64,000 nt of DNA from Trichaptum fuscoviolaceum. Taxonomy: Eukaryota > Basidiomycota > Agaricomycetes > Hymenochaetales > Trichaptaceae. The stretch lies in NCBI GenBank assembly GCA_910574455.1, contig CAJSYZ010000010.1, positions 1,764,770 through 1,828,769 of the forward strand. The letters are read 5' to 3'. Below, piece after piece: positions 43,186-62,742 of this stretch; position 1 is the stretch's first letter, and every line of letters begins with the position of its first letter. The notes under the pieces were generated by a model that saw only the letters and a program-made list of their open reading frames with translations, was not told the origin of the DNA and did not search any database. The position numbers and the translations under genes are program-made.

Positions 43186-43921
43186 GCTAAAATGGAACGT
43201 CCGGCGACCACAACTGTGTGTTTCTAACGGGTCATTTGTGCTCAACGACTTGTTCAGTGGGATAACTTAAAAAGACATATATTTTACTTCAGGGTATCCT
43301 AGTAGTATATCTATCCGATGCGGGGGAAGCGTTGATTTGTATTATTTGTACTTTGAAGGCGTTGCAACTTCGTGTATATAATAGGTATGAAACATGTGAA
43401 GCTTGCTTAGTCATCATCTTCAAGTTCAAGCTGGGCTGAGTTTGGAGATGACTCGGACATGGAGTCCGCATTCAATAGTAGTTGACCGTGACCTTCACTG
43501 GGTTTTCCTCTGATGAACTCAAGCTCTCAAAGTTATGTACTGTGCTCGAACTGTTGGCGACTATCATCATTGCAGAGGAATATACTAGAACTTACGAACG
43601 ATGGTGAATTGCCATATAGACGCGCGCATCAAAGTGATCATCATTAGCGCTGACTCGAAGATCTTTGCCTTGAGGGAGAACCATCACTGCTATCAGTGGG
43701 CTACCTGGCTCTTTTACCGCCCATGTCCGTAGTGTCGAGCGCTAGCGCCGGGCACGGAAGAATGTATAACAATCCTCCCACCGATTTTTAGAAAGGCGCC
43801 TGGGCTTTTGCTTCTTCTAACTACCTTCTGAACAGCTTGAGTGTACCAGGCCTCGTCAACTGATTCATCTCTCTCTTTCTCCTTCTCGACTACAGAACAA
43901 GGAGAATACGCAAGTCAGAAA

Positions 43922-45875
43922 ATGCCTGGTATCGTGCGGCAGGGACATGAACACGATGCAGTGGGGAAAGTGGCTTCAGTCTCCAAAAAGGCGCTCTCCA
44001 TTGCGATCCAATACCAGGACACCGCAGCCTATGCTAGGATGGGTGGAGACCCACCACCCCAACTCACACATGCACACAATGACCCTGAGGTCCTGAAAGC
44101 GCTTCTCATTCGTGCGTTTGCATACTGCATCTTGTGCTATCTAAGCGTTCGGGTTACATTGATTGATGCAATGACTTTTTGCGTGTTAGGCGTCTATGGA
44201 TATATGGAAGAAGACATCGAGATCCTCATGGACGATGGGAAGCACACTTCGCCAACTCGGCATAACATTGTATGATATTGCCTGGTTTCTTTACTGAGAG
44301 CGCCGAAAGCTAATCTTAGTGATTTAGTTGAGGGCAATAGACCGAATGGTGAAAACTGCGAGAACCGGAGATCATTTCGTCTTCCATTGTAAGCCAACTA
44401 AGAACTTCTTACTGTGTAGGAGAAGATTGGATGACACTTATACCAGTCTCCGGCCATGGGTCACGCGTGGAAAACGTAGATCATAATGACTACGAAGCCG
44501 ATAACATGGATGAAGGTTTGTCTATTTCTTTTTCATACTTCTGTCCGTCTTTAGACTTATTTCGTTTCTTTTTAGTTATTTGGCCAGTTGATGTAATATA
44601 CGATGAAAAGCGGGACGAAGTGAAGAACTACATTGTGGACGATGTCGGTCAATTCTGTTCTCTATCTAACACGAGACGGGTGAGACTCATATCCACGTCT
44701 ATCTAGGAGCTGAGGCAACGCCTTGTTGATGGACTCCCACCAGGGACCCACCTCACTGTGCGTCACCTGAATTGAGGATTTTCTATTTAACGCTTGTGTG
44801 CTCACTCTTATGAACTTCAGGTCATTCTAGATTGCTGTCATTCTGGATCTGGAGTTGGTAGGTTCCATTTCTATGTATCAGAAGCGTGCTCCCTATTCAT
44901 CGTAATCCATTCGTCAGATCTTCCGTTCATGCACTCGGATGACAGTGGATCGGAAATATGGTCTTCGCCTGTGGCGCCTTCGGTAACTCATAAACCTTGG
45001 GAGACGTCTTGGAATTCAGCTTCGAAGGGTAAGCCACACTTATACGTACAGCGCTCAAATGCGCGCTGAAAAAAAACTTCAGTCAGAGCGAAAGGCTCAA
45101 TCAAATTCAGTAAGCTCAATTCTTTTCCCGGATAAGCGCTGAAATTGAGATTACCCTGAAGAAATGCCCTTCATGGAGCATGCGCCATCTCATTCTTCTC
45201 CAGGAAGACTATCTCCTGGCGCCCAACTCACTCAGATGTTCCGGGAGAAATTGACGCAAGCCGCTGCTGAATTAAACGACCGAAACAAGGGCAAATATGT
45301 GGTATGCAAAACCCGCAAATGCGTACCGTACTACCTCTATCTCACTCGATGTACTTTGTAGACGTCATGGGCTGCGTGTGCAGATGAGGAGATCACTTAC
45401 GACGGACCTGACGGGGGACTTCTAACACATGTGAGACCTTGTCTGTATTGCTGAGGCCTTTCTTTGACTAACACGAGTTGTTAGGCATTTGCGAACATTC
45501 TGTGTAAGCGTGACATCACTCGTTAAATTAATGGCGTACTCATTGGATACAGCCCAGAATCAACGCTTGACGCATAAGGAATTACTTGTCGCCCTCGGGT
45601 ACGCACTGTTTCCTCTCCCAGGTGTCATGACACATTGACTCCATGAGTAGTACACACCTTGCCAAAACTCTGAAGGTCGCAAAACATCAAGATGCAGGCA
45701 ATCCCATGTCCTGTCCGAGACCTATAGTGAGTTATGTATATCTTTGGATATAGTGCTGCCTACCTGACAATCCCTGTCTTTGCTGCAGTTGGGGAGTCTT
45801 CATAGGATGGTGAGCAACCCAGTGTTCAGCCGTCCTGTCCGCAATTCTGACGATCTTGGAGAGCGAAATTTATGA
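43922..45875 (+). CDS. Type I metacaspase (caspase-like cysteine protease)
   Basis: The start is ATG at 43922 (MPGIVRQGHEHDAVGKV). Exon 1 ends 44111 and exon 2 is 44190-44269. Later exons carry GDHFVFHFSGHGSRVENVD, with the catalytic His split by an intron just before SGHG. They also carry the DE-rich segment DNMDEVIWPVD and VILDCCHSGSG, whose second Cys of DCC is the expected nucleophile. The C-terminal part includes LTQMFREKLTQAAAELND and KGKYVTSWAACADEEI, then GGLLTHAFANIL and a last GSLHRM motif. Order and motifs fit fungal metacaspases, which cleave after Arg/Lys and act in ageing, stress and proteostasis. No long Pro/Gln-rich prodomain is seen. The junction near 45100-45165 does not resolve cleanly in phase, and the final stop (45875 or an earlier splice) is uncertain. 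Confidence 0.85.
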
Positions 45876-46827
45876 TGCACCTTTTGCGTTCTAAGTTAGC
45901 TAACTGATTCGTGGTTCGAGTGATTCGCTTCGTTGCCTTCCCAGATTCTCTTGTCATCATCGTTCATCTCGCATTCCGTGTCCGTTGGATAACAATCGTT
46001 GAGTTTCCTTACCTGCTGGAACCCCGCCTCTTCAACTTTTTCTACACGAGCAAAGAGCGATTGCTAGTCCGCTTCCACAAATTATGTGGTTTTTATTCAT
46101 TTTGTCCTACTTTGCAACTCATTTATTGTTACACATACCTTTAACCTAACTATCGCGGATGCGAATCCATTGGTTTGGATACAGATATCAACTTACTTAA
46201 ATTCAAAATTCAACTGAAGCTCATGGAATATGCGCACGTATGCAAAGTTGTCTGCGAACCTTTTACTTTCTGCTATCTACCCCCTCCAGCGCGTCTGCTT
46301 CAAATTTATATCTCTTTGACCGTTCCCTATTTCCTCGCGAACTACGCCATATCATCGTTGAACTCCTTGCCATATGCCACACATCTTCTCTGGGGTTCTT
46401 CAAATCTCTTGAATGGTTGACTTGTACATATTGTTGTTGACACCAGCCCCTATTGTCGCCACACAGCTTCGTCTTTAGCATATTAGAATAATACAGAAAT
46501 AGGACGGCTATGACGAAGGACGAATGTAATATCGGCCGGCCTTCAGAATGCTCAATACGTCCATGCCATCTTAGAGCTTAGATTAAACTTGAGTCGAAAG
46601 CGGCGGGAAGGCTTCGACGAGCCTTAGGATATGCTTCCAATACACCGAACTTTTTTTTTCCAAAAATTCAACATTGTTTGATCTAGAGACTGCATATTGT
46701 ACAGTGTGAGTGATCTACAGCTACAGTGCTCGACAACATTCATGAAAATAAAAATACCCGAACTACGACAATTATCAATGATGACGCTCTTCCCACCCAC
46801 CCACCGCAAGCGTTAAGGCTCTAAAGA
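45876..46827. other. Intergenic between convergent metacaspase and EF-2 3' ends
   Basis: AT-rich with pyrimidine runs. Short hydrophobic ORFs (for example 45911-46144) have no recognisable family. Nothing is supported. Confidence 0.4.
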
Positions 46828-48205
46828 TTAGAGCTTGTCATAGTAAGCGTCCAGAGAAGGAATCTCAGGCTTGAGACCCTTGCGCGTCCGAATTTCCCTG
46901 ACTATTTCCTCGAGCTTGCCGCCCTTGTCAAGTGGTGATCCAGCCATGACGTCCCAGTGGTCGAATACAGCTTGCGGGAATGCTTGGCCGCCTGTTTGCT
47001 GGCGAAGATCAGCATTGAAACCAAAAGATTCGCTGACGGGTAGATACGCCTTGACGGTAAACATCGGGGTTCCGACACGCTGTTCCTGGGAGAAGACAAC
47101 CCCGCGACGCCTGTTGAGCACGGAGAAGATACCACCGATCGCGCTCTCGGGGCACTGGATCTCGACGAGGTAAACCGGCTCCTGGAGACCAGGTGTCGCG
47201 AGCAAGCAAGCGGCATAGCAGACCCGTCGAGTCGTTGGGATAACCTGTCCACCGCTACGATGGATGGCATCGCCATGGAGCGTCACGTCGAGTATGTTGA
47301 AGCGCACGCCGCGCATGTTCTCCTCCGCACATACACCCTCCTTCGTCGCCCACTGGAAACCAGCGACGCACGAGTCCTTGATTTCGTGGAGGTACTGCAC
47401 ACCTTTCGTGACGTCGACGAGCAGATTGGGGCCAGTTGTGTCCGGACCGAAACACCAGATCTTACGCGCGTCGGACACATCCCAACCGAACTCATCTGCA
47501 AGAAGGCGCGCGCGCAGCTTGAAGTCGTCGCGAGGGTTCACTTTGCCATCCTCGATCGCCAGAGAGAGCTCTTCTGTCAATGGCTGTGCCTTCATGTACA
47601 GACGGTTGTGCTTGTTCTGTGACTTGGAGAGCGCGACGATCGAAGACTCGGCCTTCACGGTCTCGCGGTAACCGACGACAGGATCCGACTTCTTCAGCGG
47701 TATGCCGGCGTGGACCTCCTCGAGTTCCTTCAAGCAAATCTCGAGATGCAGCTCACCAGCACCAGCGACAATGTGCTCGCCGCTGACATCGGTCCAGGCC
47801 TGCACGCATGGATCGGACTTGGAGAGGCGCTTGAGGCCTTCGACGAGCTTCGGTAGATCCGCTGGATTCTTGACATCGACAGCGACCCGCACGACAGGAG
47901 AGACGGAGAACTTCATGACCTTCATGTTGTGCGCAGTCTCGCTCTGGGTAATCGTGCCGCTCTTGAGAAGGAATTGGTCGACACCCACGAGACCGACGAT
48001 GTTACCGGCCGGGCAATCTTCGATGGCCTCGACAGAGCGACCCATCATGAGCACAGTACGCTGCACAGTTTTGACGAAGAGATCTTCTTTGTTTCCCGGA
48101 ACGTAGTTTGGGCCCTGGATGCGGTACTTCGTATTGGTACGGACAGTCCCAGAGAACACACGACCGAAGGCGTAGAAGCGACCCTTATCAGACGTCGGCA
48201 CCATC
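46828..48205 (-). CDS. EFT: Elongation factor 2, C-terminal part (gene split by a transposon)
   Basis: This continuous frame encodes EF-2 domains II to V after the KMV / [11 protein letters not shown] junction. Visible blocks are [66 protein letters not shown] and [10 protein letters not shown]. The diphthamide loop [15 protein letters not shown] keeps its His. The C-terminal end is [14 protein letters not shown] ([15 protein letters not shown]), then AYYDKL. The coding sequence belonging to EF-2 runs from 48205 (start of the target duplication) to the stop at 46828. The matching N-terminal part lies at 62742-61524, on the far side of a 13.3 kb insertion. This half has no start of its own with a promoter. 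Confidence 0.95.
48198..48205. repeat. Target-site duplication, left copy (GCACCATC)
   Basis: GCACCATC here is repeated exactly at 61524-61531, the other junction of the insertion. In the uninterrupted EF-2 frame it occurs once, covering the Met-Val codons of SKMVPTSD. If the G at 61524 belongs to the element, the duplication is 7 bp instead. Confidence 0.85.
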
Positions 48206-48420
48206 CAGTCCTGCCAGCTACTTGAATGAATGAGATGCAGTAGATGCTGGATATATTGAGGGGCTTGAATGAATGAAACTGCAGTGGTTGCTGGCTGATA
48301 TAGGGGACTTTAATGAATGAGGGCTTGCTTTACTGCCGAACATTTATTGTTTCAGATGCAGCATTTACTGCTTCATGAAGGGTATGGTAAATCAGCCTTG
48401 CTGGGTTGTGATGCAGAGCT
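48206..48420. repeat. Left terminal inverted repeat region of the KDZ element
   Basis: After the end sequence, TTGAATGAATGA-type words occur three times (48222, 48264, 48309), suggesting a local expansion of about 80 bp. Then GCTTGCTTTACTGC (48323) and ACATTTATTGTTTCA match the right end in inverted order. Confidence 0.75.
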
Positions 48421-48792
48421 GGGATACAAATAATAGGGCAGCAGGAAATTATTATTTGGGGTATTATTCAGGCTGAATGGGGTTAAAAAGACTTGATTAC
48501 ATTATATATACTGTTTATCCGGCTTCTAATACACAGGATATCCCACTTGGGATCAGTTATTCTAATATATTGTCAGGGATGTTCGGGTACTCGGATACAC
48601 TGGCATGTACCGGTTTCAATCTGCTCTCCCTCAAAGCATCAAGGCCATAGTCTCACGGTATTGGAGAACTCCTAAGTCACGTCACTGCGGTCGTCGATGG
48701 CCATTGTTCAAATTTCGGACTCATTACAATTTCGGACTCATTACAAGACTTATAATTTGATCATTATTATAAACAGGTTATAAGTACATAAA

Positions 48793-51700
48793 TTAAGAAA
48801 GAAGAAGGTCAGTCGATGAAAGCGGGGGCTGAGACACAACATCCGAGTCTTTGACGTAGTTGACAACTCGCATGCGAAGTTTGTTCCGTTGAAGTCGAGG
48901 TTTCACTTTCTTGATAGTTGGTGCAAGTTCGAGATATTTAACTGGCCATGTCACTGGTCGTGCAAGGCCTGAGTCCCTGATTCCAGTCAACCAAATTGAC
49001 GCAAAATCCGACGCGAGGCGCTCGCGGATAGTTGCCTGTTTCTCCGCGTACCCTCTGAACCCCGAAGCAAGCACTGGTTCGCAGCCCGTCCTCAAACGCC
49101 CCTGCTCTCGCCACCACGCAGATTGATGGTCAAGCACTACGAGCGAGCGGCGCATCTCTTCGCGAAGAAGTAAAACTTCTTCCTCCCATCTTTCCGCGCG
49201 CGCAAGCGACTTCGCCCATTCAACCCGTAGTCCTGAAAAGATGTTATTGAAAGAATGTAGTCAAATAAGAAAGAGTACATACCATCTTCGAGTTCCTTCG
49301 CAGCAGCCTCATCAGAACCAGCCCCGTCCGTCTGCGGTATTGCCCTCCAAATCCACGACAACGTTCGCCTTCCTTCAGACTCAAGAGCGGTACCTTTTCT
49401 GCTTTGTTTCCCTTGAGATCTACCCTTCGCCGTTAGCTCTTGGCCTCGAATAGGAGGATGGATATCTTGAGGCAGAAGAGGCTTGAGATTTTGCTGCCAA
49501 CTTCCTTTCGGGTCCAAATTAACAAGAGCCTTCCGTGCGTCTCGATAGCGTTCGACATCTCGTTCTCGATAATGCACATGCTTGTCTAAGAGGGCTTGCA
49601 TGCGAGTGTTCGGTCGAGTTCCAGTCCCAGCTGTATGCAGCTTTTTGCTGTCGAAGAGCCGCGCACAAATACGAAGGCGCCTTCGAAGGGAAGCAATTGC
49701 CTCTCGACATTGTGGAAGGCGAAGGCGGCGCTCCTTTTCAACCAATGAAGCGAGTGCAGGGCTGTTCCTCAGAGTATCAGGCAACGAGGATGGAAGACAG
49801 AGGTCCATATCCACGGCCGACTCGATTTCGACGTCTTCGCCATCATATATCGCGAGGTCAGGGGCCGTACGGACAGGGCCAGAGGGCACGGTACCCAGTG
49901 TAGTCGATGTTTGGCGCGCTATCCTTTGCGCTCGTTTAGCAGCATTGCTCGCGCGCACAGCAGTCGCGCAGGGCATGTAAATTTGCTGTATCGCTCTCCA
50001 TAGAATAATTTTCCTGCGAACTTCCCGGTCCTTCTTGTCGATGTTAAGAGTGCGACTATTATTCTTCTTAGCTCGTGCATGCTTGTAGCTGTTTGCGAGA
50101 GCTCGTCTGTATCAGCAAAGTAAGTCAGTATGTATTAACAGTAGAAGGAAATATTAATACTGACTGTTGTTCTTCTATTTCTAACCCTGTCGCCAAGAAT
50201 TGCGTGGCTGACATTTGGTGCAGCGGAAGAACGCCTTTCTGTGTTTCCTCGTCTTCCTCTTTATTCAGTTCGCGCTTCACGTCAGCGAGGCTTGTCCCTG
50301 AAAGAAGTCGTCAGCTTAAATTGAGAGAAAAGAAGACGTCGGGGAACTGACCTTCAACCGGTTCTTCATATGGATTGCGAGACTTCTTCGGGTCGTCATT
50401 CCAGACTCGAATCATTTCCGTCCAGTCTTTGACATTCTCGTCCGAGAAGGTCTTCGTGAATTCAATGTGTTGTGCTCTGTGAAGACGGGCCTCTGCGATG
50501 GCTTCGTAAAGGCGACGTAGTATGGTAGTACCTAGTTTAAAATCGTGTCAGTATAGTAAATAGTAACAAATGTTGAAGCGCACCTAATCGCGCCAGAATC
50601 CTCCAATTCCAACCCGACCATTGACAATCAAGTGTGTCTCTACGAGCACCCGGTCCCATTTCCCGTGTAGATAGAGATGCCGGGTTCATGTAAGCCCACC
50701 CGCGCTCGATATTTTCACCATCCGTTCGTGCCATCCGTCGTCGGAGGTTGAGAGAGTAGATCGACTGGCATTTGATGCCGTGAGCCGAGATATGAAATTT
50801 GGGTATAACGAACTTGATGATGAATTTGTCAATCTTGCAGCGAAGCTCTTCAGGCAAGTCGGCAAGTCGCTTGAGAAGGTTGATATGCCATTGACACACA
50901 ATGTCATACGACACAGTGATAGAAGGCCCATCGTACCCACATAACGTGGACCAAAAGATGTAGTCCATGTTCGCGTATCTAGAATGCACCATTAACGAAC
51001 GTCCGTAGTGCGCACACAATATATGTTCACCTTTCGCCCTTCTGAAGGTCCCCCACCCCTAACTTCCTCATCATCATATGCCGACATTGGCATGCGCCCA
51101 CTCCGCTAGCATTATAAAGATCGCCGCCACGGGTGTTCGCGTGGTCGACTGCATGAAGTCCGGAATCACAATAATTCACCTAATGAAGTACAATTTTACA
51201 TTAATTGCTAAATCGTTAAACAAACACGTAATTTTAACTCACCTCCGTCTGATCTGTACAAGTCTTCAAATATTCCTGGTATCCATTTTCTTCGACGTAG
51301 TATGCTAAGCCACCCCCAAGAGCGGGGTCCGATTTGATTCCTCGATCCTTCGACTTCAGTCTGAAGTTAGCGTCTAACATTAGTACGAGCGTGTCGAGCC
51401 ATCTTTATCAAGTCAGAATGGAGTTAAATGCAGTTCAAGGAAAACTCACGATTTGTCTTTGATTTCTTCCCCGATTCCACCATCGCTCACACCAGATGGA
51501 CGCGGTGCAATTACAGGGTTCGGGCAGGCGGGGCATGCGATTGCGCAAGAGCCTGGTTTCGCGCTCGCAACACCATCAGGAGAAAGTCCGACCCCCGCTC
51601 GCTTTAATAACTTCAGATGACGCCAAAGGCGGCACACCCTCATAAATTCTTCGTAGCGTTTCTTAGGATGTAAGTTAGTATTTAGTGAGCTCTATAAGAA

Positions 51701-52881
51701 AGAATGTTACTTACCCGAGGTGGGTCGAAGTCCGTGTTATCCGTCAAATGAAGGAGCGACTGGTAAAAGTCGTATCCAGTAAGTTTGCCTTGCAGTGTAA
51801 GCTTGTGAAATAAATCGAGGCAATCGAAAGTGACGGCGGTCCTCGGCCTGTCGTGCGTCGCAGGAAACCATTGGATACGCATTAATTGAACCCAATGTTC
51901 GTGCGCCTTGCCCAACGACTTGCTGCATGAGCACCAGTGTACCTTAATACGATGCACTCCGTTAACAGAGATAACAACGAGCACGTAAGGTGTCGAGTCC
52001 TTGGCCGTCGAGGGGCATATCGATCCTCCGTGTCCAATGTTGAAGATAAGACCAAGCGCGTCTAAGTCTATCTTGTCCCAAAATCCTTTCCACGTCTGTT
52101 TAACAATGGTAAGAATGCAACTTCCGTTAGCGAACACAAATGACTTACATAGATGCGATGCAGGGGTTTGTCTGCATGTCCAATTCGCATGCAATCCCTA
52201 CATCGATACGCTGCGTCTAGACAATCGCCACATTTTAATGGCCGACCTTCATCTTCGCCAAACGCATCGCCGCAGTCCGCGCAGTATATCTGGTCCTTGA
52301 GTCCATCGATACGGAGCAATTCATCGAGTACAGAGTCTCGCAGAGGGACCCAGTCGAGGAGGGCTTTCGTCTTAACCAGTATTGTGAGTTAAAAGCAGAA
52401 GTAGACATGTAGAAATGCCAATGCTCACCTTAGATTCCTTCGCTGCCGCAAAAGAAGCAAGATCATGTTCTGTCGAGGGCTCATCATCTGATGAATAGCC
52501 AGAGCTCCCATCGCTCGCGTCTTCATGGATAGGGTGGCTGTCGTTTTCGGGGGCCAAATCTGGTGCGTCATCGTCTCCAAAATCATTATCGATGGTGTCA
52601 GTGTTGTCTTGCGTGCTCGCGAGCCAGGCCGCAAAATATTTGCTTTGAGCACCATCGGGTGCGTGAGTTTCGATAGACGGCGCTGAGACTTCAAATCCGT
52701 CATCCTCTATGGCGAACCTGGTTTTCTTCCTACTGCGAGCATTGACATCCGTGTGCACATTCCGTACAGTGGACTTGATCCATTCCGTCGTGATTATGTT
52801 GGATTCGTTCTCATCCTCGTCGTCTATGGTCTCCCGGGAGGTGGAAACAGTGGAGAACTTCGCAGCTTTGCGTCGTGGCAT
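48793..52881 (-). CDS. KDZ transposase with CxC2-type cysteine cluster
   Basis: The start is ATG at 52881 (MPRRKAAKFSTV). The acidic N-terminal exon ends at a GTGAGC donor near 52428. The CxC2 cysteine cluster follows (52300-52150): YCADCGDAF, KCGDCLDAAYRCRDCMRIGH, then PLHRIY. The next conserved block has GHGGSICPS and VNGVHRIKVHWCSC, and ends GYDFYQSLLHLTDN. The KDZ catalytic core includes a WLDTLVLMLDANFRLK-type Asp near 51400, VSYDIVCQWHINLL near 50910 (second Asp), PKFHISAHGIKCQ, and RTDGENIERGWAYMNP (Glu) with STREMGPGARRDTLD. Long helical C-terminal exons run 49976-48793. At least eight exons. The family moves DNA by a DDE-type mechanism. I see no unavoidable stop, though every splice was not verified. 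Confidence 0.88.
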
Positions 52882-54059
52882 GAGGCACCCGAGGCAGGTT
52901 TGTTGTGCTCGACTTTCCCATGACTAGAATACGATCAGCTTAACTTATATTCAAGTTGACAGAATGCAGATTTACATACCTAGAAGATCCGCGTCGAGGT
53001 CGTCAGCTATAGGTATTGAGGAAACATGTATGGCCAGAATCTGCCAAAGGGAGCGATTAACATTGCCATAGTGTCGAAGAAAAGAAGAGAAGCCAAACTA
53101 TTATTATCGCCCCGAGGCCCAAAAACCCAGCTTTGTCAGCTAGTTACTCGACTTGGTGCCAGTGTTTGATCCGATCACTGGCATTTGATTAGATTATCTA
53201 TATTCGTATCATGACGTCTAAGTTGAACTCTCAAGTTTGAATTCCCTCCCTCCTACTGTGATACTGTGTTAACATCGCACACGATAAACACGCAATGCGA
53301 TGTACCCATAGTGTTTCACACTAAATGCGTACGCATTTGGTTCCAAATCTCTACTATTCGCCATGACACTCAGGAGTGACTCTTCGACAGATTGACTGTC
53401 AAAGTAATCTTTATGGTATGTTATGGTCCGTATTCTCCAGTTCAACGATCTAATATCTGACTCTCGATTATCTTTCCAATTCTATAACACGCAGCACGCA
53501 CAAGCATCGATGCTCATTCCTTAGTGCCGAATATCTATCCTGATTTCGTGCATGTTCAACACATATTGAGAAACGATGACGACTAATACACTAACGGTAA
53601 GGCGATTTCAAAACCCCACAGTTCTAGTTCTGACATGTGTGTGATACTCTCTCTATAGTGATATTCAGATTGCCTTAGGTACACATCCGATGAAGACGTG
53701 AAAGGAGTGGCAATGCAATGAGTAGTAAGCTATCCGACCAGAATGAATTCTCCGAAACTACACCAACGAACTTCAGTATCGCTCCAACATGATCATGAAG
53801 ATAGGACATTAGGCTACCAATCACTGGGCCTTGATGAAACCTGCTTTGGCGGGCCTCACAATCCTTAGTATACCACCGGCATGACGTGAGTTCTGTTAGA
53901 GTCCTGGTTGATACTGTTAAAGTATGCCTTACTTCACAGATAGTGCCAAGCGAGTCAAAGATCAGTGACAGCAAGTTGACGCGAAGTAGCTTAGAGTGGG
54001 CAATACATTGGCAGCCTGAGACTATTGCGGACGATGCTCACTGCAGATGCTATGGTAAT

Positions 54060-54232
54060 ATATGATTCTCTTTGTATGTTCTATAAGCAATTCGACCCGC
54101 TTGATCTGGTGCGTTAGCCTTAAAGACAATACTGACTCGAGAGTTCAGATTCGATTCTCTTTATATGCCTATAAGCCTCTTTATCGTTGATTCGACCCGC
54201 TTGATCTGGTGCGTTATCCTTAAGCACATCAC
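54060..54232. repeat. Direct duplication of about 90-110 bp
   Basis: GATTCTCTTTGTATG near 54063 and GATTCTCTTTATATG near 54152 are each followed by a shared ATTCGACCCGCTTGATCTGG and GTGCGTTA(G/T)CCTTAA. The second copy has an extra CTCTTTATCGTTG. Confidence 0.65.
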
Positions 54233-54914
54233 TAACTTGATAACACAGATTCGTGCGGATAGGAATGCATATTGGTAAGTCAAGTTGAATCGTCGTATGT
54301 GTATCATACATACCGTTGATTCAGCATTTACGGTTCTAATAAAGCTCGCATTCAGGAAACAAGTTATGGAGTGCAGTGAAGTAAGATTCAAGTGATTTAA
54401 CGGAGGTACTCTGACTTCTTCTGAGCTCTATGGCGCAGAGACATACCTCTCAATGTGCATATGAACCGGAGACACGACCCTTATAAGTACATTTATGTAT
54501 TTCGAGGCCATCGAGCACGCAAAGGTTCACTTCATTCCAGGTTCGGTTTCAGTTCATTACCACTGCTGTTTCGACTCTGAAAATTGGAATACTCTACAGT
54601 CAAGAGAACAAAGTGCATGGTCTAACAAGACCTTTATATCTTAGCCTCAGTCTGGCGAGTAGCAATTAGCTTATATGCACTTTTGTAAACCCGTGAACCA
54701 GATGCGTGTCACGGGTAAGGGTATCCTTCATGTATTCAAGTGCTGCTTCCATAGCTGATGCTAATGACAGCGAAGAGGAAGAGGCAGTCGAGACTGTTCT
54801 CGAAAACATAGTGATGTAGCCAAGGCTACATAAGTTTCATGTTTTGGCTCTATGTACTAATTCTGATTGGACTCCAATAGCCTTGTTTCACCCCTGTCCG
54901 AACATAATTCAGAT

Positions 54915-55210
54915 GATTCTTCATGTAGAGATACACGGATTCAGAATCAGAGTCTGATGACGGCGAATTCGACTTAGATCGCACGTAGTCCTTGCTGGAT
55001 GGCATTGACAACTTGATTCTTCATGTAGAGATACACGATTCAGAATCAGAGTCTGATGACGGCGAATTCGATTTAGATCGCACGTAGTCCTTGCTGGATG
55101 GCATTGACAACTTGATTCTTCATGTAGAGATACACGATTCAGAATCAGAGTCTGATGACGGCGAATTCGATTTAGATCGCACGTAGTCCTTGCTTGATAT
55201 CATTGACGAC
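54915..55210. repeat. Three tandem copies of a 99-100 bp unit
   Basis: Copies begin at 54915, 55015 and 55114, each with GATTCTTCATGTAGAGATAC. They are nearly identical, so the amplification is recent. Within the unit a frame reads DSESESDDGEFDLDRT then stop, which looks like degraded acidic coding sequence. Confidence 0.85.
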
Positions 55211-55728
55211 TGAGAGCACGATGGCGGTAATAAACAGACAGATGCATAAATTTCAATTTTGGGCTCAGAATTCCAGACAAATTATCATATCAGCTTCTCC
55301 AGAAAACAGTGCATTATCATAAGTAAGAATACGCCAGAAAAGCAACAAAAAGAAGCCTAAATGTACTTATAATATAATTTTGAGGGTGGAGACCCTGCAA
55401 GTACACAGCACCAAGAAACTAGCGTCAGCCGCGTACATCTACATAGATTTCAATAGCAGCTTCAGCGCCAAAAGTTCAAGAAAACGCAAATCAAGTGCTC
55501 GCCGTAACAAATCGATCAAAAAATGAAGACACTCTACAAGAGAAATTGAGCGGGACAGGAAGACACGTCGTCCATTTCAATAGCCTCTCAGCAAAGAAGG
55601 TAGACTTCAAAGCATGTGTCCATGCTTGTCCACATCAAACTGAAGGTAGCGTATCCTAAGTGTCGCATGAAGACGTCAGAGTCACAATTGAAGGCAAATA
55701 AAGCACAAACTTACTTCGTTTAAACAGT

Positions 55729-57330
55729 TCAGGTGGATGGTCCAGCTTCGACACCGACTGTCTGGCTATCCTCCGCTTCGATGAAAGCCGCGAATGCGAT
55801 GTCGTATTTCTTGTCAGCGTAGTACACATCTGAAGAGTGCGCACTGAGTGATGACGTGACCGAGTTATTCGCGAAGATTGAAGAGTTTGCGGTGTCTTCA
55901 TCGCTATCCAGGAATACGACAGTAAGTGAGCTCGGTATACTGGTTGGCTCATTGGCGGACGTCGAGATGGCGGATGTCGTCGAGATAATAACAGTATCAG
56001 CTCTTGCCTCTTGATTGACCATAGTCCATCCGGTAGGCATGACGAGTCCATTTGAGTCACCGACAGATCCTGAGGAGGGCTCATTGGGGTTGACAGTTCC
56101 GTTGGGGAGGTCGGTGAGAGTTTCAGAAGTGGCGGGGGTAGGCGGCAATTGACCAGAAGGAGAATCCACGCGCGTCGAAGGCTGAGTTGATAGGGGCGGT
56201 TCGTCAAGGTTGCGTATGCCCGCGTCAATCCCCATAGGTTCAAAGATATACTCCCTAGTGTAGTATAGTTGTTAGTATTCGTATTTACTTTTCGGGTAAT
56301 AAACAGTACGTACACATGTCCTGATGGTTCAATGGCAAGTCGAACCCGTTGAACATTGCCATGTTCGACTGCTTCCGTATAAGCACAAACAGCCTCATGA
56401 AGCGTACCAAACTTCCGTGAGTAATTGTTCGGAATTCCTTGAACCAGTCTAGTCCTAAGGGTGCTAGAAGGACATTATATTTGTTAGTCGACTGCTGAAT
56501 GAATTTAAATGACGGACTTGCCTACTGGTCGTGTAACCGACATCACGTCCGATGAAGATAACATAATAACCTCGACGCGGCGACACCCCAGCGACTTCCG
56601 AAGCAGACACGGACAAGGATTGAGGGGAGCCCAATGAACCCAGACTACTCACGACTGCGGCAGGAGCTACTTGGTCGAAGAGTAAGTCGGGTGTTTTGTC
56701 ACCAGCCACTATGACCACAGCGCGGGCAAATGCAATGACAAAGACCAGAAAAATACGCAAGCCGAAGACTAAGCTGCGGACAAGCCATCCATCCTCGTTC
56801 GCACTCGTCTGAGTGGATTGATCTTCATAGATTCGTGGATTGTCTTCCGTAGTCGAAGGATGTTTCATTATGAGCTTAGTTATGACGGTCGTAAAGTGAG
56901 TGGAAGGAGGACAAGGAGAGCGGGACTCAACTCACAACGACCAGGCGTGTTGAATCGAACCATATTCAGCACGCAAAAAAAACTCCTGCCCCAGAACACG
57001 AAGGACAATAATGTCCGCGGGATAGAAGCTACTGCCATACCACTGATCGGTACGAAAACAAAAAATTATTGGAGCGGGGTATCCGGCGATTCTTGAAACA
57101 CGGGGGTGTCAGTCAGGTGGAGAATCGTTGCAAGAGTGACATACCAATTAAGCCATTGCTGAAGAAGAAAAGCTAGCGATGGCAATAAGCTGCCTACTGT
57201 TTGCATCCATGTTGAATAGGTAACTTGAACCTGAAGCGAGAAGTCATCAGTGATTATCAGAGATGCACACAAACAGACATCGTACCAAAATTTGTAGCTA
57301 CCTGCACGACTGGACAATCTACGACTACTC
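55729..57330 (-). CDS. Cargo protein with hydrophobic helices and a viroplasmin/RNase H1 N-terminal-like domain
   Basis: The exon 56868-56540 encodes a polar start, a hydrophobic helix (WLVRSLVFGLRIFLVFVIAF) and RRGYYVIFIGRDVGYTT. After an intron (about 56525-56465) comes RLVQGIPNNYSRKFGTLHEA, then VCAYTEAVEHGNVQ. Together these match the Cauli_VI/viroplasmin fold found at the N-terminus of RNase H1 (YYVV.VGR.PGI...A...V.G......KF....EA). The last exon (from about 56260) is Ser/Thr/Asp-rich and stops at 55729. Upstream exons near 57000 and 57230 add hydrophobic segments, but the true start is unresolved and one splice junction did not close in phase. The domain binds RNA-DNA or dsRNA in RNase H1; no nuclease domain is present here. 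It lies about 340 bp from the divergent cargo gene. Confidence 0.55.
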
Positions 57331-57670
57331 AATATTAGAATGGCTCATGTATAGATGAAAAGGGCAACATTACAGTCTGATTTAAATCCTTGACTTGCGA
57401 GATGTATAAAATTCGTCTAATTACATGTTCACTTAGTATCTTGCACCAGACTTTCAGCCTTGTGGACTCACTGTAATATATCAGCTTCGAATTGTCTTTC
57501 GCTTGCCAATAAGGCAGCGGCGGTGGGTTCTGACTTCGAAATGTAACTTGCTGCAATATAGAGGTGGCGGCGAAAGAAAAACTGAAGCGGATAGCCTGAG
57601 CATCGTCCGCGAATGCCGGACAGCTCTCAGAAAGGCAGAGCTTTCGACCTGAAGGAAATGAGGGAAAATC

Positions 57671-60600
57671 ATGGATTCCTATATAATGAATGAGAACTCA
57701 GCCATTGCTGGATGGTATTCAACGGACGAACTTACTAGCCAGTCACTCAGCTCTCCAACCGATCTAAGCTCACCAGTCTCTGACTCCCCACTTGCTTCTT
57801 CGACACTAACTATGCCAGGACACACTTGGACTGACGATGATCGTAAAGACTTTCTGACGGCCAATCTACCTGCGTACGAAGCTGCACAGGAGCGCAAGAC
57901 CACACGCCAGTTTATGGCTACATTGCACGAGAATTACTTCGCGCAATTCCCCCAGCCAGACGAAGCGCTGATGCTAGCAGAAAGGAAGGTTCGTCAGACT
58001 CGTTCAATTTCAAGTCACAATTACTTACTTCAGACTTGCGCACAGCAAGTTAGTTCCTGGATGAATAACCATAGTGGAGGTCGCGGCAAAAATAATGGCG
58101 CCTTGTTGCGGGCCACTCGAGTAAATTTCCGCGAGCTCCTTCGAGGCGCGCTGGACGAAAAGCGCCGCCAAAAGCTTCAAGCTACTCAGGCGTACTCCGA
58201 ACTCTACTGGGCGTCGAAGTTGAAGGCCGTTATTCTTGCTGAATGGAAGCAAAAGGTCAAGGACGAGCCGGACCTACCGAAGACTCGATACATCGCCTAC
58301 ATGAACTTGCGCGTGCGTCAGCTCTACGCCGCCGAGACCGACGCTATCAAGGCGGAGGTTGAGCACTATCGCAATGCTCCTCCAGCCGTACGTGGTACAT
58401 CCTCGATGCTCTTGCCCGACGAAGATGAGCTTGACGAGAATGAGAAGACGCGCCGTATTGCAGCTAGAGACACTCAGTCGTAAGTTGAATTTGAAGTCTT
58501 TACTTTTCATGAAGCTCACCAAATCAACAGAGCCATCGACAACGTTGAAGCGATCCTAACCGAGATCACGAAAGACATAGAGGAGATTGCGGGCCTTAAG
58601 ACCCACATCTTGGTATGCGGGCCTGAGCCACAGAGGGACGGGCAAATGGTTATGTTCACGTTAGTTTACCTATTCCTAATTGTCACTGTTATGTCGTTCG
58701 TTATTTGTTAATTGTCGACTTACTAGTATTACCTGTGGCAAATTGATTTCCAATAATCGATCCTTCAAAGAGTACCCCAATTATAAAACAGAAGTGCATG
58801 ATAAGTTCTTTTCGTTTGCGAAAGGATGCTATAGTAAGTAACTCACCTGAAAGACCACAAGACACAACTGACGCGTGCCCCGAAAGCTCGAGAAGAACGA
58901 TTGAAGTACGCCAACGTACCATTTCCCAACGGCGCCAGATCTTCGACTAGAGCTCGCACAGCCGAGGACACACATCCACCACGCCCGTCAGCTCCCAGTG
59001 CCACGCGGAGATCGAAAGCGCGTCAGCATGCCTCGAAGTCTGACGTCCCCGCATCCAAGGTGTCGACTGAATCGGTATCCAAAGATGACGATGAGGGCGA
59101 AACTGAAACTTCAGCATTAGACACAGCAAGGTACACTGTCGACGATAGTGAGGAATACGATGAGATGGACATTTTCTCACCTCTTTTGTCGCCTGATCGC
59201 CGTATCGTTGACTCGAAAATATCCGGAGGGCTGACGCTATACAAAACTGCAAATGATCAGTGGCTATCAGAAGCAGAGTTACAACGCATGGCTAACATTG
59301 CGAGGAATGCAGGCTTGATGAGAGAGCTCGGAATTGAAGAGGCGAAGCGTCCGTTTACTGCGAGGCCTGCGACACCACGAGACGACGACGATGGAAACGC
59401 ATTGGAAGTGGAAGATGACCGCGAGTTCGCTGTTGCTCGCTCTCGGACCACCCTACAGCCTCGAGAGAGTCTTCCTAGACAGTCGAAGCAGAATGTGACA
59501 TAGTAAGTGATTTTAATAGTCCAAGATAGCCAAGTAACTAATGAGCTCGACGTACAGTGTCGAGAAGAAAGATGACGGGCACGACCTGAATACTGTGGAA
59601 TCTATTTTGGTCCCAGTAGTACCTCGGGCCCCCGGCGACGCGATCGAGCCAACGGTAACAAGCGGTAACTCCTCTGAACCGGACCTCGGTCTTCCCCAAC
59701 CGGTGGTGGCAACCAGTCACGTCACAGTGCCCACGCCACAGGCTCTCGCTGTACCTGCCAGTGACCGTGACAGCGTGTCATCGTCATCATCTGCCGCCGT
59801 CCGAGTCCCCTCACCCTCACCCTCTCCCAGTCCCAGCAATGCCCCTGCACGTAAAGAGGTCATATCAACATCTCCAGCTGCTATTGTCGACTCCTTGACC
59901 CCTCCTTTCGTCGACGATGTGGCTATGGAAGTCGACGACAATGATGGCTTAGCGATGGCTATGGAAGTTGACAATCATGCCAGCCTTGATGGTACGCCGT
60001 CCGTTCAATCTGTGGATCTGGATTCCTTGGATCTCTCTAAGGCTCCCGCTTGGCTTCAAACTCCGTTGAAGCATCTTCGTAAAAAATTCCGTGGTGAGCT
60101 GGAGGATAAGGTATTGAGTGCTTTTGTGGCATTGGAAATGGGCTGGCAGCCGGTGAGTGCACAATGGTTTTTGAATTTAATTACATCCACTAATACATCT
60201 TAGTTTGACAAACGCATAGGTACGGCTGGCCGCCCTCAGGCCGTTGCATGGTGGATAAAAAATGCGCGCCCTATCGATAGGGCTCCGCCATGCATCGACC
60301 TGGCATCCTTCCCCGGACAGGTACGAGGCTGGTGGTCGACCATCCAGCCCCAGTGGCGTGCCCCAGTCCTCGAAGATTGGCCCCTTCCCCAGCGGATTCC
60401 AGCCGGCGAATCGTGGCAAGAAGCACGCCTCGGCGGAAGTAATGGGCTCATGCTCATTGTCTTGTGCCTATTCTGGTGGCGACAGGTTGCGGAGGAAGAG
60501 TTCGACAAGGTTGCGCTTGCCGAGTACGCGTCAGTCGCTGAGGATGTCGCCTTCGTCTTCGAGGCCATTCTTAGCTCTGGTGCAGTGAGCACCACCCCGT

Positions 60601-60752
60601 TGGCAGGCTCCGCCCGCGCAAACGCCAGGACTGGCGCGATTCGTAAGGGTTCTCTTCAAGTAGAAGAAACTGCCGGGCGGGCCAGGTCTCTTCGCTCCTC
60701 CGCCGCCAAGGAGAACGTCAAGCCATCGCGCACTCGACGCTCTCGTGCGTAG
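57671..60752 (+). CDS. Large cargo protein of a KDZ-element-associated fungal family, function unknown
   Basis: The start is ATG at 57671. Exons include 57671-57988, 58046-58479, 58531-58657, about 58729-58831, about 58870-59501 and about 59557-60151. The final part from about 60222 stops at 60752. Recognisable blocks are the N-terminal QVSSWMNNHSGGRGKNNGAL, then TRYIAYMNLRVRQLYAAETD. The middle is Ser/Asp-rich disordered. The C-terminal block runs AWLQTPLKHLRKKFRGELED, then QAVAWWIKNARPIDRAP, WWSTIQPQWRAP and GGSNGLMLIVLCLFWWRQ, ending in a basic tail. I recall this arrangement from Agaricomycete proteins often found near KDZ transposases. It has no known catalytic motif. It might be a DNA-binding or regulatory partner of transposition; that is inference. 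Confidence 0.65.
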
Positions 60753-60779
60753 GATAGCCCATCAGCTCGCTGATACCAC

Positions 60780-60990
60780 CACGACGCGAGGGGTTTTTTT
60801 CTTGGGCGAGCTCGCAGACGAACGGCGCGAGGGTTTTTTTTTGGCGAACGCGCAGACGAACGGCGCAAGGGTTTTTTTCTGGCGAACGCGCAGACGAACG
60901 GCGCGAGGGCTTTTTTTGGCGAGCTCGCGGACGCACGAGAGATTTTTTTCTTGGCAACCTCGCAGACGATGCGAGGGCTTTTTTGGTACG
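60780..60990. repeat. Five tandem copies of a T-run/GC repeat right after the cargo gene
   Basis: The unit is about 40-50 bp: GCGAGGG, a run of 6-9 T, GGCGA(A/G)C, then CGCAGACGAACG. Copies start near 60785, 60828, 60868, 60905 and about 60970. The first is only 30 bp after the stop codon, so the array would be in the 3' UTR or serve as a transcript end. Confidence 0.8.
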
Positions 60991-61399
60991 ATGACCTGTT
61001 CTTTGTGAGCCAGGAGTATTTGCTCCCAGACTCACTGGTTCCTCCCCCATCTGTGTGCGTAAATAGATAGTTTTGTCCCATTTCTTGATGTAACTACGAT
61101 ACACTCTTTTTACTTTTAATATGATGCAGTATTCTTCGCTGTCATTTCAGAGACCGGCCGTGTGAGACACGTCAACAGCTTAGTCATATATGGATCGTGA
61201 TGTTGCAACAAAAAGCCCACCGCATTTAGAATGCACTCCTATTATGGGTTACATGATGAGCCTACCGCATTTGAAAGATTTATCCGGTTGTTACGGACCC
61301 CATGTCCTTAAATAGGGAGTATAGCTTATGTTTGTTGTGCCGGTACACTACTATTATTCATGCATCCCTATTACAGCCTGCAAACCTACAGGTACAAAC

Positions 61400-61523
61400 C
61401 CTTCATCAAGAGCCAGCATGGCTGGTTAACCCTGCCATACATCAACCAGCATTTGCTGCAATTGAAACAATAAATGTAGTGCAGTAAAGCAAGACCTCAT
61501 TGATTCAGACAGCTGGCAGCAGT
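61400..61523. repeat. Right terminal inverted repeat region of the KDZ element
   Basis: Reverse-complemented, it carries the end CTGCCAGCT, then CTTGCTTTACTGC, ACATTTATTGTTTCA and CAGCCATGCTGG in the same order as the left end (CAGCCTTGCTGG there), without the 80-bp expansion. The stretch 61000-61400 holds nothing recognisable. Confidence 0.75.
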
Positions 61524-61531
61524 GCACCATC
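61524..61531. repeat. Target-site duplication, right copy (GCACCATC)
   Basis: Identical to 48198-48205. It lies at the end of the N-terminal EF-2 part, over the Met-Val codons. Confidence 0.85.
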
Positions 61532-62742
61532 TTCGAGACGTAGAAGACGAGAGGTGCTTTGGGATCACAATCACGAATACCAATGGCAGACTCGTCGTCC
61601 ACCGGTCCCTCGTAGAGAGACTCGACACGGTAGCGCTGCGCCATTTTCGGGGAAGGGAGGTTAATGACTATCATCTCTAGGAGAGAATCACCAGCGGGCA
61701 GGAACTTGCGCATAACGACCTTGACGAGTTCCTTGCCCTCTAATGCCTCCTCGTCCTGGGCGAGCTTGATGTCGAGCTTGTCAATCATAGTGAGCAGAGC
61801 ATCCTTCTTGGAGTTCATCGTGGCGTCGAATATCTTGAAAATCGGATCGAGGACAAACATGTTGAATGCGCGTTCGAGTTTATTGCCGTCAGTATCAGTG
61901 TCCTTCGTCGTCCACTTCTTTGTCTTGGGATTGAAGAAGTTGTCACCCCAAAGCTTGTCCATCATCTTCTCCTTGTCAACGCCGAACCTCTTTGCGTATC
62001 GAGAAGCAAATTGGCGAAGAGTGAACCCCCAACCGTGCAGTCCGGCACCGAAGGCGACAGTACCCTTGTCGGGATAGACCTGAACATCGCCGAGGACTTC
62101 GTCGTGGTAGGTCGAGATGATGACGTTCACAGACTCGATGGTACGCAGGAACGACTGATAGAGATCTTCCTTACTGACCTGCAGCTCGAGGAGCGCGCGA
62201 TCGACCTTGTTGATGACGACCACCGGCTTTATACGTTCGGTCAGGGCTTGGCGCAGAACGGTTTCTGTCTGCACGCAGACACCATCGATACAGTCGACAA
62301 CAACGAGCGCGCCGTCGGTAACACGGAGAGCGGCAGTCACTTCCGACGAGAAGTCAACATGTCCGGGCGAGTCGATCAAGTTGATTAAGAACTCGTTACC
62401 TTTCATGGACAACGTTTAATGTCAATCATGTCCCAGTAATGTGCATTCAAACAATGTCTCACCGTCTGCTTTTTCTTTGATTGAGCTGAGATCCTCCTTG
62501 TCCACCTCAAAGTACATTGAGATGGCAGTGGACTTGATGGTGATTCCACGTTCCTTTTCGTCTTCTCCTGTGTCCATAAACCGGCCACCGACATTCCTAG
62601 CGGCAATGATACCAGCCTTGGACACCAACGAATCTGTGAGAGTAGACTTTCCGTGGTCGACATGGGCGATGACACTCATGTTACGGATGTTGCTGGGTTT
62701 GTCCATGAGCCCACGTATCTGGTCGACGGTGAACTTGACCAT
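61525..62742 (-). CDS. EFT: Elongation factor 2, N-terminal part with GTPase domain (gene split by a transposon)
   Basis: Exon 1 is 62742-62463, then a 63-bp intron, then exon 2 from 62399 into the transposon junction at 61525. The GTPase motifs are intact: G1 AHVDHGKST (residues about 26-34), the G2/effector region [10 protein letters not shown]3 DSPGHVDF and G4 NKVD. The domain ends [16 protein letters not shown]. Beyond the junction the frame runs about 33 codons into transposon DNA before a stop, so a truncated protein of about 420 residues could be made. Joined to the other half without the insertion and one target copy, the gene has 842 codons, the usual EF-2 length. The function is ribosome translocation. 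Confidence 0.95.

Follow-up and report, generated by a model that had tools for sequence, protein, structure and literature searches.

How can a fungus carry an essential gene that has been cut in two? This question is raised by a stretch of 64,000 nucleotides from Trichaptum fuscoviolaceum (the window in what follows), in which a gene for the translation elongation factor EF-2 on the minus strand (62742 to 46828) is interrupted by a 13.3 kb insert, its coding sequence staying open to either side. An initial annotation had taken the gene to be the essential EF-2 of the organism and the insert to be a transposon, probably freshly arrived, with an 8 bp target duplication, the lost function being covered by another nucleus of a dikaryon, by a second copy or by somatic excision. 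A literature search combining Trichaptum, transposable elements and elongation factor found no publication.

The interrupted EF-2 gene and the borders of its insert

The first exon of the gene (62463..62742, minus strand, 280 nt, start codon at 62742-62740) is followed by the sole retained intron (62400..62462, minus strand, 63 nt, GT..AG), the position and phase of which are those of intron 3 in a second EF-2 gene on contig 2 of the same assembly (see below), and by the N-terminal part of the second exon up to the cut (61532..62399, minus strand). A Pfam scan finds GTP_EFTU (PF00009) in the N-terminal piece and PF03144, PF14492, PF03764 and PF00679 in the C-terminal piece past the cut (46828..48198, minus strand), which comprises domains II-V and from which four introns present downstream in the contig 2 gene are absent. 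Without the element, the coding sequence amounts to 2526 nt, i.e., 841 codons and a stop and not the 842 codons originally counted, and the 841 codons contain neither a stop nor a frameshift. A length of 842 residues is found in the contig 2 paralog and in 94 of the 120 listed database proteins, the window EF-2 having one fewer.

The missing codon falls just before the RFMDTG of switch I, where the window gene reads GG-RFMDTG and the contig 2 gene GDMRFTDTR. The view that neither half has any other defect is thus not quite right, since switch I is both one codon short and altered: it carries the replacements T56M and R59G at sites where 115 of 117 and 117 of 117 homologs have T and R, respectively, the site of the lost codon being less conserved. 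Next to the diphthamide histidine, where the C-terminal part reads IHRSGG, there is in addition a G700S replacement at a site occupied by G in all 117 homologs. Both switch I and the diphthamide loop are accordingly non-canonical in the window gene, in contrast to the contig 2 gene, where both are canonical.

With respect to the borders of the insert, an 8-mer, GCACCATC, is present at 48198-48205 and again at 61524-61531. A search of the genome (59,093,390 bases in 12 contigs) with the left end of the element gave 17 matching places, in 16 of which, the window element included, the match starts at element base 1, while the 17th is the window element's own right end; because of these common starts the left boundary is fixed independently and chance is excluded. 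Of the 16 left ends, 12 were covered by pairing with a right end (unpaired are C7:3589002, C3:245302, C2:1493410 and C2:651016), and the right-end search returned 32 matches, most of them unpaired. All 12 paired copies, namely the window element, a 17 kb relative on contig 5, eight copies of about 2.8 kb, one of 8.6 kb and one of 9.2 kb, have an exact 7 bp duplication, start with CAGTCCTGCCAG and finish with GGCAGCAGTG. Since this holds in 12 out of 12 copies, the eighth matching letter, a G, belongs to the element as its final base and matches by chance. That the EF-2 coding sequence is cut by a 13.3 kb transposon therefore stands, whereas the target duplication is the 7 bp CACCATC (left copy 48199..48205, right copy 61525..61531, both from the paired-copy comparison), and the family termini move the end of this KDZ-type DNA transposon from 61523 to 61524, so that it spans 48206..61524 (13,319 bp).

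The terminal regions of the element (48206..48416 on the left and 61401..61524 on the right, both given on the plus strand) form an imperfect inverted repeat, with 29 nt matching at 79% and 105 nt at 78%. In the genome search, the next-best left end is 72% and the next-best right end 75% identical; the KDZ exon has 43 matching places in its own genome, itself included, the next best at 85%, and the DNA stretches that match in four relatives compared are 65-77% identical. No near-identical donor copy turned up in the assembly, as would be the case for an element that moves by cut and paste or was introduced by a cross. Ten further copies with KDZ element ends and 7 bp duplications are located on contigs 9, 5, 4, 3, 7 and 10, and the eight copies of about 2.8 kb look non-autonomous on size alone. 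For the ends of this KDZ family a 7 bp rule is hence now available.

Elsewhere in the window there are a flavin-binding monooxygenase-like gene (PF00743, 23720-25006), a gene for an F-box-like protein (PF12937, 31593-32912) and, at 43921-45900, a multi-intron gene in which LDCCHSGSG was read by eye and which looks, as we presume, like one for a metacaspase-type protein; a tRNA scan found none.

Genes of the element and its relation to known KDZ transposons

The transposase is encoded on the minus strand. One exon (51682..52197) contains the CxC2 cysteine cluster (PF18803, E 2e-36), and the core that follows (50537..51691) comprises upstream exons and the KDZ domain itself (PF18758, E 6.1e-38, at 50537-51058), which matches profile positions 96-217 of 217; the stretch between the CxC2 exon and the KDZ exon, as read by eye, stays open if putative GT-AG introns are taken out. 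Downstream of the KDZ domain there are further open frames (48793..50547, minus strand), perhaps the remainder of the transposase, the activity of which is presumed; three pieces of this part were scanned and gave no Pfam match.

A divergent accessory gene is located on the plus strand (57662..60752, with open frames at 57662-58483, 58838-59503, 59538-60203 and 60204-60752), and Pfam gave no match in the four pieces scanned. Six unnamed database proteins match its first exon, one of them (P0241, 270 aa, 11 members) being a near-identical twin of that exon. The gene has an NNHSGxR motif, which is present in six out of six aligned proteins. A relative of this gene, likewise divergent, is found at most 11 kb from the KDZ exon in six of the eight nearest KDZ places outside the window (on contigs 9, 1 and 11 and at C4:1.10M, C5:7.17M and C5:2.98M, and not at C5:4.30M and C4:2.89M). 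Directly past the accessory gene a 38 bp unit with many T runs occurs five times in tandem (60781-60969), and three tandem units of 99 bp with 96% matches are found at 54914-55211 within the element. A TET/JBP gene was sought by Pfam in 18 pieces of the element without a match, the region from 53 to 57.6 kb, which has few long frames, being partly scanned.

Judged by its sequence, the element is a KDZ transposon with a CxC2/KDZ transposase that may be called Kyakuja-like, and no more closely than that. With the Kyakuja elements of Agaricomycetes it has in common the KDZ transposase and, as Kojima (2025) states for two Laccaria families, the 7 bp duplication and the 5'-CA..TG-3' termini (PMC12730594). 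These two families are described as being without terminal inverted repeats and as carrying a TET/JBP gene (PMC12730594), whereas the window element has imperfect inverted repeats and gave no TET/JBP match in the 18 pieces. Inverted repeats are also present in KDZ1-KDZ3 of Cryptococcus, KDZ elements of 9-11 kb whose jumps into a reporter gene have been shown, both introns and exons being hit by KDZ2 and KDZ3 (PMC12810828). In contrast to the window element with its CxC2 cluster and 7 bp duplication, these elements are reported to have a CxC1 cluster and duplications of 8 bp (KDZ1) or 4-8 bp (KDZ2 and KDZ3) (PMC12810828). Zisupton, finally, resembles the window element in belonging to the KDZ superfamily and in having inverted repeats, but differs in its target duplication, which is given as 8 bp (PMC12730594) and is 7 bp in 12 of 12 copies of the window family.

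A second EF-2 gene and the age of the cut

The initial annotation had advised a search of the remaining assembly for a second EF-2 and had named the absence of any intact EF-2 from genome and transcriptome as evidence that would count against its own account. The search located a complete copy on contig 2 (C2:4945481-4948431), with eight exons and 842 residues and open throughout in a gene model whose splice sites were picked to fit EF-2 and whose GT-AG introns are 51-73 nt long. The premise that the cut gene is the essential EF-2 is not sustained in the presence of this apparently intact gene. The search of the genome DNA with EF-2 found two places. The protein search found, besides the window gene itself, the contig 2 gene at 81-89%, and other matches only at 37-53% (C2:4857.7-4859.0k and C7:3402.3-3403.7k), which we take to be of the Snu114 or EFL1 types.

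The two proteins are identical in 747 of 842 aligned columns (89%), and the NG86 estimates for the gene pair are 0.066 for dN and 1.07 for dS, from which it follows that both genes have been under purifying selection for most of the time since they separated. Two EF-2 genes, EFT1 and EFT2, are also known from yeast, where a strain without EFT2 is reported to be viable and then dependent on EFT1 (PMC6193676); in contrast to the yeast pair, the two proteins here differ at 11% of positions and the two genes differ in their introns. Of the seven introns of the contig 2 gene the window gene keeps intron 3 alone and is without introns 1, 2 and 4-7, and the blast alignment between the two loci is interrupted at contig 2 introns 2, 5, 6 and 7.

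Intron 3 is probably old, as indicated by the 62 of 120 listed database ORFs in which the EF-2 match begins beside it, at contig 2 residue 95 or 99. In 99 of the 120 listed ORFs, a number possibly raised by the size range allowed in the search, the match stops at residue 543, perhaps at another common intron that is absent from both EF-2 genes here, and this would speak against a simple intron history. As for a poly(A) tail, a worn one might at best be seen in the nine A in coding sense (46651-46659, which read as T on the plus strand) 168 nt past the stop codon of the window gene; runs of at least eight T occur six times in the 64 kb. At a dS of about 1, a target duplication from a retro-insertion would hardly be recognisable.

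An ortholog of the window gene is present in the protein database as P0004, an unnamed protein of 753 aa with 14 members. Over residues 94-841 it is 97% identical, and it runs on without a break where the window gene is cut. The unspliced end of intron 3 seems to make up its first residues, in which case its source DNA would be free of later introns. In a tree of the window gene, the contig 2 gene, P0004 and 40 further proteins out of the 120 listed, the window gene and P0004 are united with support values of 100/100, both together with the contig 2 gene with 100/99, and this set with Hymenochaetales EF-2s with 99/95, the bootstrap not being fully settled. The stem of the window lineage has a length of 0.16 versus 0.063 for the contig 2 gene. 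Neighbours of the host EF-2 in the tree are Fomitiporia, Sanghuangporus and Schizopora, which we take to belong to the Hymenochaetales, together with other members of that order. Trichaptum itself is placed in the Hymenochaetales in PMC8970355.

Among 117 homologs (P0001 and P0116 having been dropped by length), 492 positions are conserved in at least 98%, and from these the window gene departs 20 times, P0004 19 times and the contig 2 gene five times, where it should be considered that P0004 starts after switch I and that its rows before that start mostly reflect missing sequence rather than replacements. Seventeen of these departures are common to the window gene and P0004. Since P0004 is unbroken and shares these departures, the paralog, with most of its oddities, predates the divergence of the P0004 lineage, and the gene exists in an uncut form.

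Of 748 residues compared, 21 differ between the window gene and P0004, and parsimony assigns nine changes to the window branch and ten to the P0004 branch, leaving two unassigned. Because the replacements in the cut lineage match in number those in the uncut one, the cut was probably late. In a Poisson model taking the ten changes of P0004 as the constrained rate, the time without constraint is at most 5-21% of the branch, for omega values of 0.06-0.2, while the absence of stops alone sets weak limits, at 44% or more of the branch. Of the proposal that the insertion is fresh, lateness is hence supported, freshness itself is possible, and the insertion might date from culture; in Marasmius oreades, transposons have been described as active in monokaryons (PMC9674265). 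When the truncated N-terminal product, which continues into the element, was used as a query, no copy of it was found among the 120 matches listed out of 4207, none of which exceeds 86% identity, proteins of the length of P0004 being outside the length range of that search.

Alternative readings and significance of the cut

T. fuscoviolaceum TF100210M3 was grown from a single spore as a haploid monokaryon (PMC8970355), and if the genome is that of TF100210M3, there is consequently no second nucleus to cover the lost gene. Of the covers originally proposed, the second copy has thus been found in the form of the contig 2 EF-2, whereas the nucleus of a dikaryon is, under this premise, excluded. 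On a plain reading of these analyses, the contig 2 gene would supply EF-2, as in yeast, and the window gene would be a spare copy or else a specialised one; the housekeeping EF-2 through which the strain is viable would then be that of contig 2. We consider it very probable that a transposon has knocked out a spare EF-2 duplicate and that the essential function need not be lost.

Could the window gene nevertheless be the main EF-2, with somatic excision or another nucleus making good its loss? Its strong purifying selection (dN/dS about 0.06) and its third-position GC content of 0.68 versus 0.57 in the contig 2 gene would be in line with this, but the presumed haploid origin of the genome, the completeness of the contig 2 gene with its canonical switch I and IHRGGG, and the contig 2 gene's five departures at conserved positions as compared to 20 make it very improbable. 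Codon usage, tried as a guide to the main EF-2 by means of 416 codons from RPL3 and a TEF1 exon and abandoned, scores both genes alike (0.644 for the contig 2 gene and 0.665 for the window gene). It is scarcely credible that an assembly chimera has joined the element to the two EF-2 halves: the T. fuscoviolaceum assembly was indeed scaffolded from 118 contigs, but scaffold joints are stated to carry runs of N (PMC8970355), of which letter the window has none, and the insert, like the 11 other copies, is bounded by a 7 bp duplication and by termini typical of the family.

An old cut, or a paralog that was already a pseudogene before it was cut, might be suspected from T56M, R59G and G700S, which affect sites conserved in homologs, the last being a position at which P0004 retains G, and from the codon lost at a less conserved site of switch I. 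We nevertheless regard this as quite unlikely given the unbroken 841 codons and the nine replacements against ten on the P0004 branch; the missense count rejects death for more than the above 5-21% of the branch, even if stops alone would be a weak argument. As to the origin of the paralog, the window gene might be a DNA duplicate that later lost introns, or the contig 2 gene might have gained six. The intron common to both genes, where a fully processed retrocopy would have none, and the database ORF ends, which may point to an intron absent from both, are compatible with this, but a partly spliced cDNA would be the simpler explanation for six precise absences together with the retention of one widely shared intron, and we therefore think this alternative rather unlikely, the direction of intron change being presumed.

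A succession of events may thus be envisaged in which the window copy had already arisen when its lineage and that of P0004 parted, most likely from a spliced or partly spliced mRNA or cDNA, since six of the seven introns are lacking. It would have been kept under purifying selection while changing faster than its sister, and it would then, probably late on the window lineage, have been cut by a cut-and-paste KDZ (Kyakuja-like) transposon that duplicated 7 bp of its target, so that the cut would do away with a spare EF-2 while the essential function remains.

The apparent paradox of a broken essential gene is thereby gone, and in its place there is a translation factor with two gene copies, one of them knocked out in nature, in which the conserved but unusual paralog is the sole part of more than ordinary interest. 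One might go further and suppose that Trichaptum long kept a second, specialised EF-2, born via mRNA, marked by the 17 departures common to the window gene and P0004 and working beside the housekeeping factor, which may have had a role in, e.g., stage-specific translation and which this strain recently lost to a transposon; we put this forward tentatively and think it rather doubtful. If it were true, strains with and without the second EF-2 could be compared, and should other strains keep the uncut gene, this polymorphism would show what the second EF-2 is for.
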